From contig JADFAE010000033.1 of NCBI GenBank assembly GCA_015665415.1, forward strand, positions 1 through 49,732: a stretch of 49,732 nt of DNA, written 5' to 3'. The translations under genes were made by a program, and so were the position numbers. Of the stretch, positions 4,418 to 26,766 are shown in pieces (the stretch's first letter is position 1; the number at the start of each line of letters is the position of its first letter). The stretch comes from Roseobacter sp. (GTDB lineage Bacteria; Pseudomonadota; Alphaproteobacteria; Rhodobacterales; Rhodobacteraceae). The notes under the pieces are model-generated. The model searched no databases. It had not been told where the DNA came from and saw only the letters and a list, made by a program, of their open reading frames with translations.

Positions 4418-4446
4418 TTGACCTTTGGGGTCCACCTCTGTTGAAC
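4418..4446 (+). promoter_or_regulatory. Candidate promoter upstream of yidC
   Basis: TTGACC at 4418-4423, a 17-bp spacer, then TTGAAC at 4441-4446, 38 bp before the yidC start. The -35 is close to consensus and preceded by the CT often seen in alphaproteobacterial promoters. The -10 matches only three of six positions. This is pattern evidence only. Confidence 0.3.
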
Positions 4447-4484
4447 CACTCCCTGTCATTCCCTACACGAGGTGGCAGTCCCAA

Positions 4485-6290
4485 ATGGACGACCAGAACA
4501 AGAATCTCATTCTCGCAACCGCTCTCAGTTTCCTTGTGATCCTCGGGTGGTATAGTTTTTTCCCTCCCCCAGAGGTCGAGCCCGCGCCCGAGGCCCTGAC
4601 GGCCGAGACCGCGCCCGCTGCTGATACCGCCAGCGTTCCAAGCGCCGCGGGCGGCGAAGCTGTGGCCAGCCAGTCGACCGAAGAGGCCGGTGCATCGGAT
4701 GCGCCCCGCGTCACCATCGACACGGATCGGCTCTCGGGCAGCATCTCGCTGCAGGGGGGGCGCATCGATGATCTGGCGCTGAAAGACTATCGCGTCACCA
4801 TCGACAACCCCGAAATTGTCCAGTTCCTGAAACCGGTCGGCGAGCCTGGTGCGTATTACGCGCTCTACGGCTGGGCTCCTGGTGCCGGACTTGGCTTTGA
4901 TGATGTGCCCGGGGCCAATACCCTCTGGTCGGCCTCCGCTGACGCGACTTTGACCGTCGACACCCCCGTGACCCTGAGCTGGGACAACGGCAAGGGTCTG
5001 ACTTTCAATCGCACCATCGCGGTTGACGCGAACTATATGTTCTCCGTCACCCAATCGGTGACCAATGACAGCGGCGAGACCGTTGCCCTGGCCCCCTACG
5101 GCACCCTGGCCCGTCACGGCGAACCTGCGGATTTGAAGAACTTCTTCATCCTGCACGAAGGTGTGGTTGGCATGGCCGACGGTGAGCTGGCCGAGCTGGA
5201 CTACGACGATGTCGCCGATTTTGATCTCGATCCGCGGGATGGCGCGCGCTCTGAGGTCAAACAGGTCGAAGCCAATGGCTGGATCGGTTTCACCGATCAT
5301 TACTGGATGTCGACACTGATCCCGGCCCCCGGCCAGGCCTTCCGTTCGATTGCCAAATTCGACGAACGCCGCGACATCTACCAAACTGACATCGTACTGC
5401 CGACAATGTCTGTCGTCGCGGGTCAATCTGCAGAAGTCACCACCCAGCTGTTTTCCGGTGCCAAGGAATGGGCCACCATCCGCGCCTATGAAAAAGGTGG
5501 CATTGCCGGTTTCCTCGACAGCATCGACTGGGGCTGGTTCTTCTTCCTGACCAAACCGATCTTTGCGGTTCTGCACTGGCTCAATGCGCTGATCGGCAAC
5601 ATGGGCTGGGCCATCATCGCCCTGACGGTTCTGATCAAGATCATCGTCTTCCCGCTGGCTTATAAATCCTATGCCTCGATGGCCAAGATGAAAGAGCTGC
5701 AGCCGGAGATGGAGAAGCTGAAAGAACGGGCCGGTGACGACCGTCAGAAACAGCAAAAAGAGATCATGGAGCTGTACAAGCGGGAGAAAGTGAACCCCGC
5801 GGCCGGCTGTCTGCCGATTCTGATCCAGATCCCGATCTTCTTCTCGCTCTACAAGGTGATCTTTGTCACGCTGGAGCTGCGCCATGCGCCCTTCTTTGGT
5901 CCCTTCCAGGATCTGAGCGCGCCGGATCCGACCTCGATCATGAACCTCTTTGGCCTGCTGCCCTTTGGCGGTCCCGCGCCCGAAAGCATCATGGCCCTGG
6001 TCTTTATCGGCATCCTGCCTCTGCTCTTGGGTATCTCGATGTGGCTGCAGCAAAAGCTGAACCCGGCTCCCACCGATCCCACCCAGCAGATGATCTTTGC
6101 CTGGATGCCTTGGGTCTTCATGTTCATGCTGGGCGGTTTTGCCTCGGGTCTGGTGGTCTACTGGATTGCGAACAACACCATCACCTTTACCCAGCAGTAT
6201 CTGATCATGCGCAGCCACGGCTACAAGCCCGACGTCTTTGGCAACATCAAGGCCAGCGTCAAGCGTAAGCCAAAAGCGGATCAGAAATGA
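4485..6290 (+). CDS. yidC: Membrane protein insertase YidC
   Basis: 601-residue type I YidC, the Oxa1-family insertase of the inner membrane. It has an N-terminal signal-anchor (about residues 7-25) and an acidic, Ala/Pro-rich linker. A large periplasmic domain reaches to about residue 340, followed by the conserved insertase core with the cytoplasmic coiled-coil hairpin (KMKELQPEMEKLKERAGDDR) and NPAAGCLPILIQIPIFFSLY. The ATG at 4485 fits the family N-terminus MDDQNKNLILAT; GAGGTGG lies 9 nt upstream. It overlaps the next gene by 4 bp (ATGA), so yidC, the MOSC gene and engB are probably one transcript. Confidence 0.96.
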   Translation: MDDQNKNLILATALSFLVILGWYSFFPPPEVEPAPEALTAETAPAADTASVPSAAGGEAVASQSTEEAGASDAPRVTIDTDRLSGSISLQGGRIDDLALKDYRVTIDNPEIVQFLKPVGEPGAYYALYGWAPGAGLGFDDVPGANTLWSASADATLTVDTPVTLSWDNGKGLTFNRTIAVDANYMFSVTQSVTNDSGETVALAPYGTLARHGEPADLKNFFILHEGVVGMADGELAELDYDDVADFDLDPRDGARSEVKQVEANGWIGFTDHYWMSTLIPAPGQAFRSIAKFDERRDIYQTDIVLPTMSVVAGQSAEVTTQLFSGAKEWATIRAYEKGGIAGFLDSIDWGWFFFLTKPIFAVLHWLNALIGNMGWAIIALTVLIKIIVFPLAYKSYASMAKMKELQPEMEKLKERAGDDRQKQQKEIMELYKREKVNPAAGCLPILIQIPIFFSLYKVIFVTLELRHAPFFGPFQDLSAPDPTSIMNLFGLLPFGGPAPESIMALVFIGILPLLLGISMWLQQKLNPAPTDPTQQMIFAWMPWVFMFMLGGFASGLVVYWIANNTITFTQQYLIMRSHGYKPDVFGNIKASVKRKPKADQK

Positions 6291-24021: not shown

Positions 24022-25092
24022 TCAGCCCGCAAGCTGGGCGGGCATTGCCCGGCGCGCTTTGACCGCCGCCACCAGTTTGCGCAGCTCAACCACGGTGTCG
24101 TCCCAGCCGATGCAGCCATCGGTGATCGACTGGCCATAGGTCAGCGTGCCCTTGCCCAGGTCCTGACGCCCGGCAACCAGATGGCTTTCGATCATCACGC
24201 CGGTGATTCTCTGCTCACCTGCGCGCATCTGGTCGCCGACATCCTGCAGCACCAGGGGCTGTTTGGCCGGGTCCTTGTCACTGTTGGCATGGCTGGCGTC
24301 GATCATCACATGGCCGCGAATGCCGTCCTGTTCTGCCTTGTTGCAAGCCGCATCCACAGAGACCGCAGTGTAATTCACGCCGCCGCCACCCCGCAGAATG
24401 ACATGGCAATCCGGGTTGCCGCTGGTCGCCGCAATCGCCGCGCGGCCGTTTTTGGCCAGGGCCATGAAATGATGCGGATGCGCCGCAGAGCGCGCGGCAT
24501 CAATGGCGATCTGCACGTTACCACGGGTGCCGTTTTTGAACCCTACCGGGCAGGACAGGCCAGAGGCCATCTCGCGGTGGATCTGGCTTTCGGTGGTACG
24601 GGCCCCAATGGCGGCCCAGGCCATCAAATCCGACAGATATTGCGGCACGGCTGTATCGAGGAACTCGGTGCCGACCGGCAGGCCCATCTGGTTGATATCG
24701 AGCAGGAGCTTGCGCGCCATTTCCAGCCCCTCGTTGATGCGGAAGGAGCCATCAAGGCGCGGGTCATTGACCAGCCCCTTCCAGCCGCTGATGGTGCGGG
24801 GTTTTTCAAAATAGACCCGCATCACCACTTCCAGCTCACCCGCCAGCTCATCGCGCAGCGGCTTCAGACGTTCTGCATATTCAAGTGCGGCCTTGGTGTC
24901 GTGGATCGAGCAGGGGCCGACCACAACAATCAGCCGATCATCGGCGCCGCGCAGCACCTTTTGGATATCGGCGCGGCTGTCCAGCACGGTTTTGCTGGCC
25001 AGATCATTGCTGGGCAGTTTCTCTGCCAGTTCATCCGGCGAGATCAGTTCCTGCATATCGGTGATGCGGAGGTTTTCGATTTGGGTGGTCAT
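24022..25092 (-). CDS. aroG: 3-deoxy-7-phosphoheptulonate synthase (DAHP synthase, class I)
   Basis: 356-residue type I (AroG/AroF/AroH-like) enzyme condensing phosphoenolpyruvate and erythrose 4-phosphate, the first step of the shikimate pathway. Seen are VVVGPCSIHDTKAALEYAERL (metal-binding Cys in GPCSIHD), the MRVYFEKPRTISGWKGLVNDP substrate loop, IGARTTESQIHREMASGLS and the late IDASHANSDKDP. The N-terminal segment normally carrying allosteric contacts is present, so feedback inhibition is likely. The leader ORF and hairpin upstream also suggest transcription attenuation by aromatic amino acid supply. Confidence 0.95.
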   Translation of the reverse strand: MTTQIENLRITDMQELISPDELAEKLPSNDLASKTVLDSRADIQKVLRGADDRLIVVVGPCSIHDTKAALEYAERLKPLRDELAGELEVVMRVYFEKPRTISGWKGLVNDPRLDGSFRINEGLEMARKLLLDINQMGLPVGTEFLDTAVPQYLSDLMAWAAIGARTTESQIHREMASGLSCPVGFKNGTRGNVQIAIDAARSAAHPHHFMALAKNGRAAIAATSGNPDCHVILRGGGGVNYTAVSVDAACNKAEQDGIRGHVMIDASHANSDKDPAKQPLVLQDVGDQMRAGEQRITGVMIESHLVAGRQDLGKGTLTYGQSITDGCIGWDDTVVELRKLVAAVKARRAMPAQLAG

Positions 25093-25138
25093 GGTCCTAA
25101 GGTTCCTTGCGGGAGGCCCCGGAGCGTAGCGGCGGATA

Positions 25139-25168
25139 CAAAAAAACCGCCATCTGCTGAGGGCGGTT
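25139..25168 (-). terminator. Attenuator hairpin upstream of aroG
   Basis: On the minus strand AACCGCC (25168-25162), a 10-nt loop, GGCGGTT (25151-25145) and a run of about seven T, ending 47 bp before the aroG ATG. It is a canonical intrinsic terminator placed between a leader ORF and its structural gene. The 5' arm is complementary to GGCGG inside the leader ORF (25228-25224), giving a possible antiterminator. Confidence 0.8.
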
Positions 25169-25197
25169 GGTGTGGTATCTGCTGGTGCGTGCCTATG

Positions 25198-25278
25198 TCA
25201 TCTGCGCGCCAAGACCCCTCCGTCCGCCTGTCGGCCCGGATAAAAATAAAACCAGATTGCAGCATAGGCTTGGGTCAT
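25198..25278 (-). CDS. Aromatic-rich leader peptide of aroG (attenuation)
   Basis: A 26-codon ORF starting MTQAYAAIWFYFYPGRQ and stopping at TGA (25198-25200). Codons 9-13 are Trp-Phe-Tyr-Phe-Tyr, with another Tyr at codon 5; such a run has no likely other purpose in a short ORF before DAHP synthase. GCCTATG in codons 4-6 (25269-25263) is perfectly complementary to CATAGGC just after the stop codon (25197-25191), suiting the 1:2 pairing of an attenuator. No strong ribosome site precedes the ATG, and the best -35/-10 pair (TTGAAA at 25340-25335) is weak. Known trp, phe and his leaders have this design; the exact folding here is my inference. Confidence 0.8.
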   Translation of the reverse strand: MTQAYAAIWFYFYPGRQADGGVLARR

Positions 25279-25457
25279 GCGGGCGACGCTAGCGGAGATT
25301 CGGGGGGTTGTCTATCTGGAAACTTAGTACTGATTTTCAAAACTTTGCTAGCCAGGCATGGAGATCACTTCGACAAAAGTACAACGTCTGCTTTGAGCCC
25401 ACTTTGACCGATGCCGCGTGTCGCACCAACTGCAGCAATGCATCAGAACAAGGCTAT

Positions 25458-25946
25458 TTAGACCTCTGTACGATTTGCCTTAGCCATGGCTTGAAAGTTT
25501 ACATCCGAAGAATCGAAGAAATAACTCACAAGGTCGGCATAAGCTTCTTCAAGTGACACATGTGTGTGACTGAAATCACCAGGCCCCGGTCCGGGTGCAT
25601 ACTGATGGACTTCTGTGCGCCACTGTGTGCCACAGCCCCAAATTACAACGCTAGGCATAAATGTTTTCGCTTCGTTGCCATTGCTGTCGGTAAAATAGAC
25701 TTCGATATCGAAGCCGCGGTTCCCGCCATTTTCTGCCGGTAGAATAATCTGATAGCCAGATGGAGTTGCTACATGCGTGCTGACAAAAAATGGAAAGCCG
25801 TCGATAGAAAGCCCAATTTCTCGTATTTTCTGAATGAACTCCGGCGGTAAGAGGCGCTCTTCTGGATGTGTGCGGTTCTCCGGACGATCCGCATTAGCGG
25901 CCTCACGTAGCATCTTCTCGCGCATTCGCTTCGCATTCTTGCCCAT
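25458..25946 (-). CDS. Hypothetical protein
   Basis: 162 residues, no family recognised. The basic N-terminus MGKNAKRMREKMLREAANADR is probably helical. The middle (IGLSIDGFPFFVSTHVATPSGYQIILPAENGG) and the rest look like a mixed alpha/beta cytoplasmic protein. No signal peptide or membrane segment is seen. The frame is open for 489 bp with lower GC than neighbours, hinting at later acquisition. It lies upstream of and in line with the aroG leader, 179 bp away. A weak start site (GAGC before the ATG) leaves the exact start open. Confidence 0.6.
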   Translation of the reverse strand: MGKNAKRMREKMLREAANADRPENRTHPEERLLPPEFIQKIREIGLSIDGFPFFVSTHVATPSGYQIILPAENGGNRGFDIEVYFTDSNGNEAKTFMPSVVIWGCGTQWRTEVHQYAPGPGPGDFSHTHVSLEEAYADLVSYFFDSSDVNFQAMAKANRTEV

Positions 25947-26280
25947 AGCTCGATCCCAAACTCGTTGTCAAAACGACAGAAGCAATGACATTAATGAAAT
26001 GAGAGACTTAAGCAAGGTCCGCTTCGCGCAGCGAGCCGTCGCTGGCTTGTGGGATATGAACAGCGGCTTTGTCCGCATAGCTGCCCTTCAAGGGTTTTCA
26101 CAACCAGCTGTTTCATCAATTGCCAAAGCCTGGCTTTGGCAGCGCCCGAACCGCCCCCACGGGGCGGGCGCTTTGCGTCCCACCCCTCGGTTCGGACGCG
26201 GTGGTTTTGTGAAGCGGCTCAAAGACAACAAAGCCCGCAAAGCAGACACGCGTTAGAAAATTCACCGTCTGATATCGTCA
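25947..26280. other. Gene-free stretch with palindromic elements
   Basis: Between the unknown gene and the rplQ terminator. It holds a TGCCAAAG/CTTTGGCA hairpin (26121-26141) followed directly by the REP-like element listed separately. The one open frame (to 26256, plus) has no ribosome site or family likeness and reads through these palindromes, so I do not call it a gene. Confidence 0.6.
26142..26199. repeat. REP/MITE-like palindromic element
   Basis: 58-bp element bounded by inverted repeats GCGCCCGAACCG (26142-26153) and CGGTTCGGACGC (26188-26199), one mismatch in 12. An inner CCGCCCC/GGGGCGG stem lies inside. The left part aligns with the element at 45950-46012 (shared GCAGCGCCCGA and GGGCGCTT). 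Confidence 0.65.
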
Positions 26281-26313
26281 AAAGAAAAGCCCCCGCTCCA
26301 GTAGAGCGAGGGC
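26281..26313 (-). terminator. Terminator of the alpha operon (after rplQ)
   Basis: Minus strand GCCCTCGCTC, 5-nt loop, GAGCGGGGGC (26313-26289, one G-T pair), then TTTTCTTT. It lies 28 bp after the rplQ stop. Confidence 0.85.
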
Positions 26314-26340
26314 CAAACCATCTGACGATGTTAGACAGTC

Positions 26341-26766
26341 TTATTCTGCGTCTTCGACTTCGACTTCGGCCGCAACGCGGGCCTTGTCGGCGGCGCCTTT
26401 GGCTGCAACGTCACGGTCGACGAATTCGATGATCGCCATCGGTGCCATGTCACCATAGCGGAAACCCGCTTTCAGGATACGGACATAGCCGCCCGAACGC
26501 TCAGCGTAGCGAGGGCCCAGAACGTCGAACAGTTTCGCAACATACTGGTCTTCTTTCAGGCGCGCGTTGGCCTGACGACGGGCGTGCAGGTCGCCGCGTT
26601 TTGCCAGGGTGATCATCTTTTCGATGATCGGGCGCAATTCTTTTGCCTTGGGCAGAGTGGTTTTGATCTGCTCGTGCTCGATCAGCGAGCCGGCCATGTT
26701 GGCAAACAGGGCTTTGCGGTGCTCGTGAGTACGATTAAGGCGGCGGTAACCACGTTTATGACGCAT
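26341..26766 (-). CDS. rplQ: Ribosomal protein L17
   Basis: 141 residues. The conserved N-terminus [20 protein letters not shown] and [20 protein letters not shown] identify L17 of the large subunit, near the exit tunnel. An acidic C-terminal tail (VEVEVEDAE) is an alphaproteobacterial habit. Last gene of the alpha operon, 142 bp after rpoA, with an intrinsic terminator downstream. Confidence 0.97.

Follow-up and report, generated by a model that had tools for sequence, protein, structure and literature searches.

The aroG gene of Roseobacter sp. is preceded by a leader that is very probably a ribosome-mediated transcription attenuator answering a shortage of any aromatic amino acid. The window, the whole stretch of 49,732 nucleotides that was analysed (contig JADFAE010000033.1), carries both on its minus strand. 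This reading rests on the anatomy of the leader, its conservation, a pair of mutually exclusive pairings and the fit of a folding model to the position of the ribosome. Sequence and modelling together reveal the elements of the attenuator class: a short ORF bearing the regulatory codons, an intrinsic terminator, and a predicted antiterminator, formed by ORF sequence, that excludes the terminator. The attenuation of DAHP synthase by an aromatic leader, proposed in a preliminary description of this DNA, is supported by the conserved run, the terminator and the complement between ORF and terminator.

Anatomy of the aroG leader

The features, in the order of transcription, are as follows:

25309..25314, minus strand: -35-like element TAGACA (sequence)
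25286..25291, minus strand: -10-like element TAGCGT, 17 nt from the -35-like element and 7 nt before the leader ATG
25198..25278, minus strand: leader peptide ORF of 26 codons, MTQAYAAIWFYFYPGRQADGGVLARR (sequence, relatives)
25272..25276, minus strand: arm 1, GACCC, at the ORF start; tentative partner GGGTC at 25217-25213, enclosing the aromatic codons
25240..25254, minus strand: regulatory codons Trp-Phe-Tyr-Phe-Tyr, codons 9-13 (TGG TTT TAT TTT TAT in sequence)
25213..25228, minus strand: arm 2, GGCGGACGGAGGGGTC, in the ORF, antiterminator 5' strand, beginning 11 nt past the last aromatic codon
25174..25179, minus strand: GATACC, inner 3' strand of the antiterminator, partner GGGGTC (folding, alignments)
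25162..25168, minus strand: arm 3, AACCGCC, terminator 5' arm, common to the antiterminator
25145..25151, minus strand: arm 4, GGCGGTT, terminator 3' arm (folding)
25140..25146, minus strand: seven-T run of the intrinsic terminator (sequence)
24022..25092, minus strand: aroG-type class I DAHP synthase, 356 aa, the putative controlled gene (PF00793, TIGR00034)

Direct reading of the minus strand bore out the coordinates of the preliminary description, including a 26-codon ORF (25278-25198) with Trp-Phe-Tyr-Phe-Tyr at codons 9-13. The hairpin with about seven T that it had placed ahead of aroG is seen at 25168-25140, between the leader ORF and the gene (AACCGCC...GGCGGTT followed by seven T), with a folding energy of -12.7 kcal/mol and z = -4.06 against shuffles. 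A consensus scan, whose loop limit is 8 nt, reported no terminator at this leader. The complement between the ORF and the terminator 5' arm is likewise present, GGCGG at 25228-25224 facing CCGCC at 25166-25162, and it recurs in relatives. The other alternative stem that had been proposed, GCCTATG/CATAGGC, exists at 25269-25263 and 25197-25191 but is not conserved within the genus: in seven relatives it is down to 4-5 bp (ACCTATG with CATAAGC or CATAGTG), and the pair was therefore set aside as probably a chance match.

The antiterminator stretch folds at z = -1.75, with 9 of 200 shuffles equally good. The stability of the whole leader is ordinary (z = -0.30 against shuffles), and its folding energy is uninformative. 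In a profile search, the aroG product matched PF00793 (7.6e-90) and TIGR00034, aroFGH (5.3e-152), which identifies it as an AroFGH-type class I enzyme.

The aromatic run exceeds chance expectation

As controls, stretches of 450 nt were taken from both strands of the same loci, the regions ahead of aroG being masked. Short ORFs with five or more aromatic residues in six turned up in 3 of these 3382 stretches, and ORFs with four or more in 74. Of 30 regions ahead of class II DAHP synthase genes, many of them from one genus, none reached five in six (29 are valid, L126 having been misplaced into the gene by a contig edge) and 10 reached four. A leader was accepted if at least four aromatics in six were followed by a terminator; 88 of the 111 accepted leaders have five or six aromatics and 23 have four. 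On the class II upstream regions, the recurrence at aroG and the control rate, a chance ORF was rejected.

Conservation of the regulatory codons

The leaders share a common order: aromatic codons, GGCGG in the ORF, stop codon, CCGCC terminator arm, GGCGG 3' arm and U-run. Between the last aromatic codon and the arm motif lie 11 nt in 70 of the 111 leaders, 14 nt in 14, 17 nt in 10 and some other number in 10; in the remaining 7 the motif is missing from the span searched. Outside these elements the peptides diverge widely, as in MSAKFYFYFFWHLKPLADREG (Burkholderiaceae) versus MITVATSYFWYFSYDSSLAAGGSRSI (Bradyrhizobium).

All 17 distinct Rhodobacteraceae ORFs have TGG as codon 9, and their codons 10-12 encode Phe or Tyr at 50 of 51 positions, with TTT and TAT interchanging. 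Pro14 (16/17) and Ala18 (17/17) are also conserved. Retention of aromatic codons while Phe and Tyr swap is as expected of a sensor of aromatic tRNAs, and is less likely for a functional peptide. Across all 111 leaders the run always contains both Phe and Tyr, and it contains Trp in 89. Trp is found in every run of the Rhodobacteraceae (22), Bradyrhizobium (14), Xanthomonadales (13) and a Mesorhizobium-like group (10); the 22 runs lacking it belong to Oxalobacteraceae (8/9), Burkholderiaceae (6/19), other alphaproteobacteria (6/9) and miscellaneous loci (2/2). Codon choice is also skewed within the runs. Counting related rows and leaving out loci above L183, Phe is encoded by TTT in 226 of 273 cases versus 228 of 793 in the aroG genes, and Tyr by TAT in 158 of 262 versus 200 of 583; the TAT bias is absent from the Mesorhizobium-like group.

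Predicted mutually exclusive pairing of the RNA arms

With the ribosome modelled at the last aromatic codon, the RNA ahead of it folds so that arm 2 pairs with CCGCC, together with an inner helix of the GGGGTC:GATACC type. A GGCGG-type ORF arm opposite the terminator CCGCC was found in 105 of the 111 leaders, and it is these leaders that are in register for pair counts (63 distinct; L012, L014, L015, L156, L173 and L207 are out). Leaders lacking the core motifs cannot enter this register, and arm 2 was taken as the best complement; core pairing therefore arises by construction, and the informative observations are flanking pairs and changes of pair type. Flank pairing exceeds all 2000 shuffles across the 63 related rows; when each of the 12 lineage groups is represented by a single row, 74 of 5000 shuffles reach it. 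L113, L208 and L209 have A-U in place of G-C at one core pair, although the competing terminator arm retains G.

The preliminary description had called for covarying stems in relatives. The exclusive stems are indeed conserved, but the covariation is modest. Alignments A2-A4 cover 78 of 98 distinct antiterminator stretches. A4 has a two-sided change at one pair (covariation score reached by 13 of 500 shuffles; 5 cells on one pair, reached in 16 of 500), as has A2 (205 of 500; 1 cell, reached in 257 of 500), and A3 has no such pair. Formal covariation is weak to modest because the core pairs hardly vary.

When the ribosome is moved along 104 distinct leaders in a folding model, arms 2 and 3 share about 6 pairs on average as long as the A-site codon is no later than the last aromatic one, and 4.3, 2.0, 0.9 and 0.2 at the next four codons, a switch point that assumes a 13-nt ribosome edge and partly restates the 11-nt spacing. 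Near the beginning of the ORF, modelled pairing is weaker in Rhodobacteraceae (3.7-4.8) and in L208 and L209; in Devosia and Oxalobacteraceae it persists for longer. Once arm 4 is present, even a stalled ribosome leaves the terminator with more than 5 expected pairs in 11 of the 12 lineage groups; the switch must therefore rely on co-transcriptional timing. Known attenuators likewise switch co-transcriptionally. In the model, Roseobacter sp. leader RNA free of ribosomes leans towards the antiterminator (7.6 pairs) as long as arm 4 has still to be made, so that an untranslated leader might allow read-through; lineages vary in this respect. The model predicts a hairpin of arms 1 and 2 around the aromatic codons, with 3 or more expected pairs, in 90 of 99 distinct leaders. 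Only 19 of the 99 beat shuffles (p <= 0.05), arm 1 pairing being hardly stronger than in shuffles; for the Roseobacter sp. leader p = 0.46.

Transcription start

Given a -10-like element 7 nt before the ATG, the RNA probably begins at the ATG or a few bases from it. Of 68 alphaproteobacterial leaders, 58 have a GACA-like element 27-38 nt upstream of the ATG, versus 282 of 8994 control ATGs, and in Rhodobacteraceae the columns from -13 to -8 are conserved. No Shine-Dalgarno-like motif was found ahead of 109 of the 111 leaders. A consensus scan found no promoter at the Roseobacter sp. leader. Judged from the sequence, the leader is probably near-leaderless and read from the very 5' end of its RNA; in Burkholderiaceae the promoter seems likely to lie further upstream. 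The trpL RNA of S. meliloti has been shown to start at its leader AUG (excerpts of PMC7298713 and PMC10117765).

Proposed mechanism and alternative explanations

From this arrangement we infer a transcription start before the leader, ribosome stalling, termination, a transcriptional response and three-way sensing. Transcription would begin on or very near the leader AUG, with a ribosome translating the leader as the RNA grows. When charged tRNA for Trp, Phe or Tyr is scarce, the ribosome would wait with one of codons 9-13 in its A site, leaving arm 2 (GGCGG...GGGGTC) free to pair with GATACC...CCGCC. The resulting antiterminator would block the terminator, and aroG would be transcribed. With all three amino acids plentiful, the ribosome would cover arm 2 up to the stop codon, arm 3 would be free to pair with arm 4, and transcription would stop before aroG. 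Shortage of any single aromatic amino acid should suffice to open the gene.

It is possible, if rather unlikely, that a genuine attenuator responds to just one or two of the amino acids (Phe or Tyr, for example), the remaining aromatic codons being tolerated because their tRNAs are charged well enough. The C. glutamicum aroR leader, where Tyr is without effect despite a Phe-Tyr-Phe run (excerpt of PMC11802643), points this way, as do the 22 of 111 leaders whose run has no Trp. Against it stand the four lineages that keep Trp in all their runs and the invariant TGG at codon 9 in 17 of 17 Rhodobacteraceae ORFs. Conserved residues outside the run, Pro14 and Ala18, would suit arrest by the nascent peptide on a free aromatic amino acid, in the manner of TnaC, instead of tRNA shortage. 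Such arrest is highly improbable here, since Phe and Tyr swap at codons 10-12, the peptides differ greatly among lineages and the conserved Ala codon sits in arm 2. TnaC-type arrest, moreover, raises expression with amino acid supply, which is the wrong sign for a biosynthetic gene.

The remaining alternatives move the function away from aroG. The near-leaderless layout resembles that of S. meliloti trpL (excerpt of PMC7298713), and the main product could be a terminated small RNA or peptide acting elsewhere, like rnTrpL/peTrpL, with control of aroG secondary. We consider this very improbable, as between lineages the peptide is poorly conserved beyond its aromaticity and the arms. That the hairpin merely terminates an upstream gene, the leader ORF being a coincidence, has a virtually negligible probability. 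A 162-aa ORF on the same strand does end at 25458, but the combination of ORF, spacing and complement is found in 111 of the 181 regions ahead of aroG despite quite different peptides, and such a run appears in only 3 of 3382 control stretches; recurrence at aroG and the control rate led us to reject this explanation. Attenuation answering a shortage of any aromatic amino acid remains our preferred reading of the aroG leader.

Genome context

Neither the TrpR nor the TyrR family had a match in the Roseobacter sp. genome; the E. coli control matched both. This is consistent with the earlier statement that aroG control here is unlike the TyrR/TrpR control of E. coli. The genome also carries a class II DAHP synthase, as do 51 of the 60 genomes searched, its own included. 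No comparable leader was found before the class II DAHP synthase or trpE of this genome, and the pattern of aromatic run plus GGCGG occurs once in it, at the aroG leader (3 hits for the reversed-pattern control). A second string of the leader codon type, at 5535-5546, was discarded: it lies inside a 621-codon ORF (4425-6290).

Upstream of the leader, the minus-strand 162-aa ORF (25458-25946) has no Pfam or NCBIfam match. A dispersed repeat at 26059-26247 matches ten other places in the genome with 79-93% identity over 36-177 bases, and near it lies an ORF that we take to be rplQ. Short ORFs ending in YRWLPFYY or similar precede class II aroG at L116, L134-L138 and L140. They begin 62-164 nt ahead of the match to class II DAHP synthase, occur in several members of the genus and are variable; they may be promoter sequence.

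Distribution and evolution of the leader

Leader and terminator were found together in 111 of the 181 aroG upstream regions examined. By source, they are present in 42 of 79 regions from the best 80 loci listed from named genome contigs (L060, with only 58 nt upstream, was left out), 25 of 25 from relatives and family surveys, 34 of 37 from class and phylum surveys, and 10 of 40 picked from the phylum listing to span families. The least biased figures for spread are those of the family and class surveys. In the family survey, all 17 class I aroG loci from 394 genomes have the aromatic run, the terminator and the ORF-to-terminator complement. The preliminary description had staked its reading on conservation of codons and stems in relatives, and the aromatic run of the ORF and the terminator and antiterminator arms are kept in these 17 loci and far beyond. 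In the class survey, 12 of 14 AroG loci from 385 genomes have leader and terminator; a fifteenth match, G139, is not AroG and was left out. Of the other two loci, L147 stops at a contig edge, and L154 keeps the arms with a run shrunken to Phe-Tyr. The phylum survey matched 227 of 398 genomes, and upstream regions were taken from part of these.

The leader also occurs in Rhizobiales, Phenylobacterium, Xanthomonadales, Burkholderiaceae and Oxalobacteraceae. Among the named loci examined, it was found in none of 10 from Enterobacterales and none of 3 from Vibrionaceae. Seven of the other 70 regions have an aromatic ORF without an accepted terminator (L059, L070, L076, L083, L191, L218, L219); L218 and L083 look like true leaders whose terminator was missed by the acceptance rule. 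L175 has no leader within an Oxalobacteraceae-like group, and at L045 the terminator alone remains. No leader was found ahead of the annotated start of a plasmid-borne Caballeronia aroG-like gene or in an Aeromonas caviae plasmid record.

Several loci depart from the common form. L113, L114, L115, L208, L209 and L226 have a divergent type with an FYWFR or FYWYR run and a CAGCGG or CCGGCGG arm. This type includes Paracoccus denitrificans PD1222, with leader MPCTISFYWFRCPQRSRV or a longer start, which is absent from the PLSDB gene table (the table is incomplete). Outside Proteobacteria, L076 (an Anaerolineae MAG) has an ORF, MSRYFSFFSWYGYFAAGQ..., ahead of class I aroG, with a strong hairpin and no U-run. 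The sister loci L153, with a scattered Phe/Tyr run, and L154, with Phe-Tyr left and RNA arms intact, are possibly a decaying sensor.

On a tree of 141 AroG proteins (L077 left out), 75 of 77 rows on the alphaproteobacterial and Xanthomonadales side have the leader, the other two being unclassified. So do 24 of 26 in Burkholderiaceae and Oxalobacteraceae (one without, one unclassified), and two more leader rows (L056, L064) fall in the remainder. Four state changes suffice for leader presence, versus a mean of 32.2 for shuffles, on a tree that was built by a quick method, is unrooted and has 56 of 138 inner branches weak. A single ancient origin followed by losses would fit this pattern. We give somewhat less than an even chance to an ancient single-origin three-aromatic attenuator that originally controlled class I DAHP synthase in the alphaproteobacterial/Xanthomonadales and Burkholderiales lines, travels together with the gene and is missing from groups governed by TyrR and TrpR (Enterobacterales, Vibrionaceae).

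Significance and relation to known systems

For bacteria that lack TyrR and TrpR, the leader suggests a way, open to direct test, of matching shikimate pathway entry to the supply of its three end products: a single short ORF would act as an OR gate for aromatic shortage. It is a candidate regulatory RNA for three classes of Proteobacteria, laboratory strains among them, with no Rfam match found. A search of 24900-26500 gave three Rfam matches up to E = 1, none of them a leader family and all below gathering, and 20 loci had no match at gathering. The leaders also form a natural data set on the joint evolution of regulatory codons, ribosome footprint and RNA arms, and engineering of aromatic production may benefit.

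The multivalent leaders of ilvGMEDA and ilvBN read several end products at a shared pathway step; they differ from the aroG leader in concerning branched-chain amino acids. With the enteric trpL, pheL, pheST and hisL attenuators, the aroG leader shares regulatory codons, an antiterminator overlapping the ORF and an intrinsic terminator. Each of these responds to one amino acid, and their targets are not pathway entry but a terminal branch or a tRNA synthetase (in part from an excerpt of PMC11802643). S. meliloti trpL (rnTrpL/peTrpL) is likewise an alphaproteobacterial attenuator with an RNA starting from the leader AUG, but it concerns Trp only and lies before trpE (excerpts of PMC7298713 and PMC10117765).

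Leaders of DAHP synthase genes are described in C. glutamicum and predicted in Acholeplasma and Shewanella, so the kind itself is already known. In C. glutamicum, an aromatic-codon leader peptide with attenuation, aroR, stands ahead of the DAHP synthase gene aroF, reportedly described by Neshat et al. 2014. As given in excerpts of PMC11802643 and PMC4046766, aroR has Phe-Tyr-Phe and responds to Phe, not Tyr; compared by description, it differs from the aroG leader in its actinobacterial host, in the absence of any mention of a Trp codon and in the lack of a Tyr effect. The Acholeplasma uORFC-13-1 motif before aroF is similarly a predicted uORF plus terminator ahead of DAHP synthase, but it has Phe codons and its own RBS, belongs to another phylum and is a prediction (excerpt of PMC8632094). 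In Shewanella, regulatory RNAs are predicted before the DAHP synthase genes aroF and aroH, and aroF is listed as an "attenuator sensing tyr-tRNA" after E. coli work; these motifs concern Tyr only, and the excerpt (PMC2659441) does not describe a three-way run. Attenuation control of E. coli aroF was itself once hypothesised (excerpts of PMC4046766, PMC8632094 and PMC2659441).

In the literature searches and the excerpts covered, no report of the leader was found for alphaproteobacteria, betaproteobacteria or Xanthomonadales; Vitreschak 2004 and Panina 2001 could contain it. The main text of PMC2965389, as excerpted, mentions none of DAHP, aroF, aroG or aroH. The preliminary description had called a leader of this kind unusual, which has to be narrowed, since DAHP synthase leaders had already been described or predicted. 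What does look new is the predicted three-way aromatic sensor at pathway entry, together with its spread.
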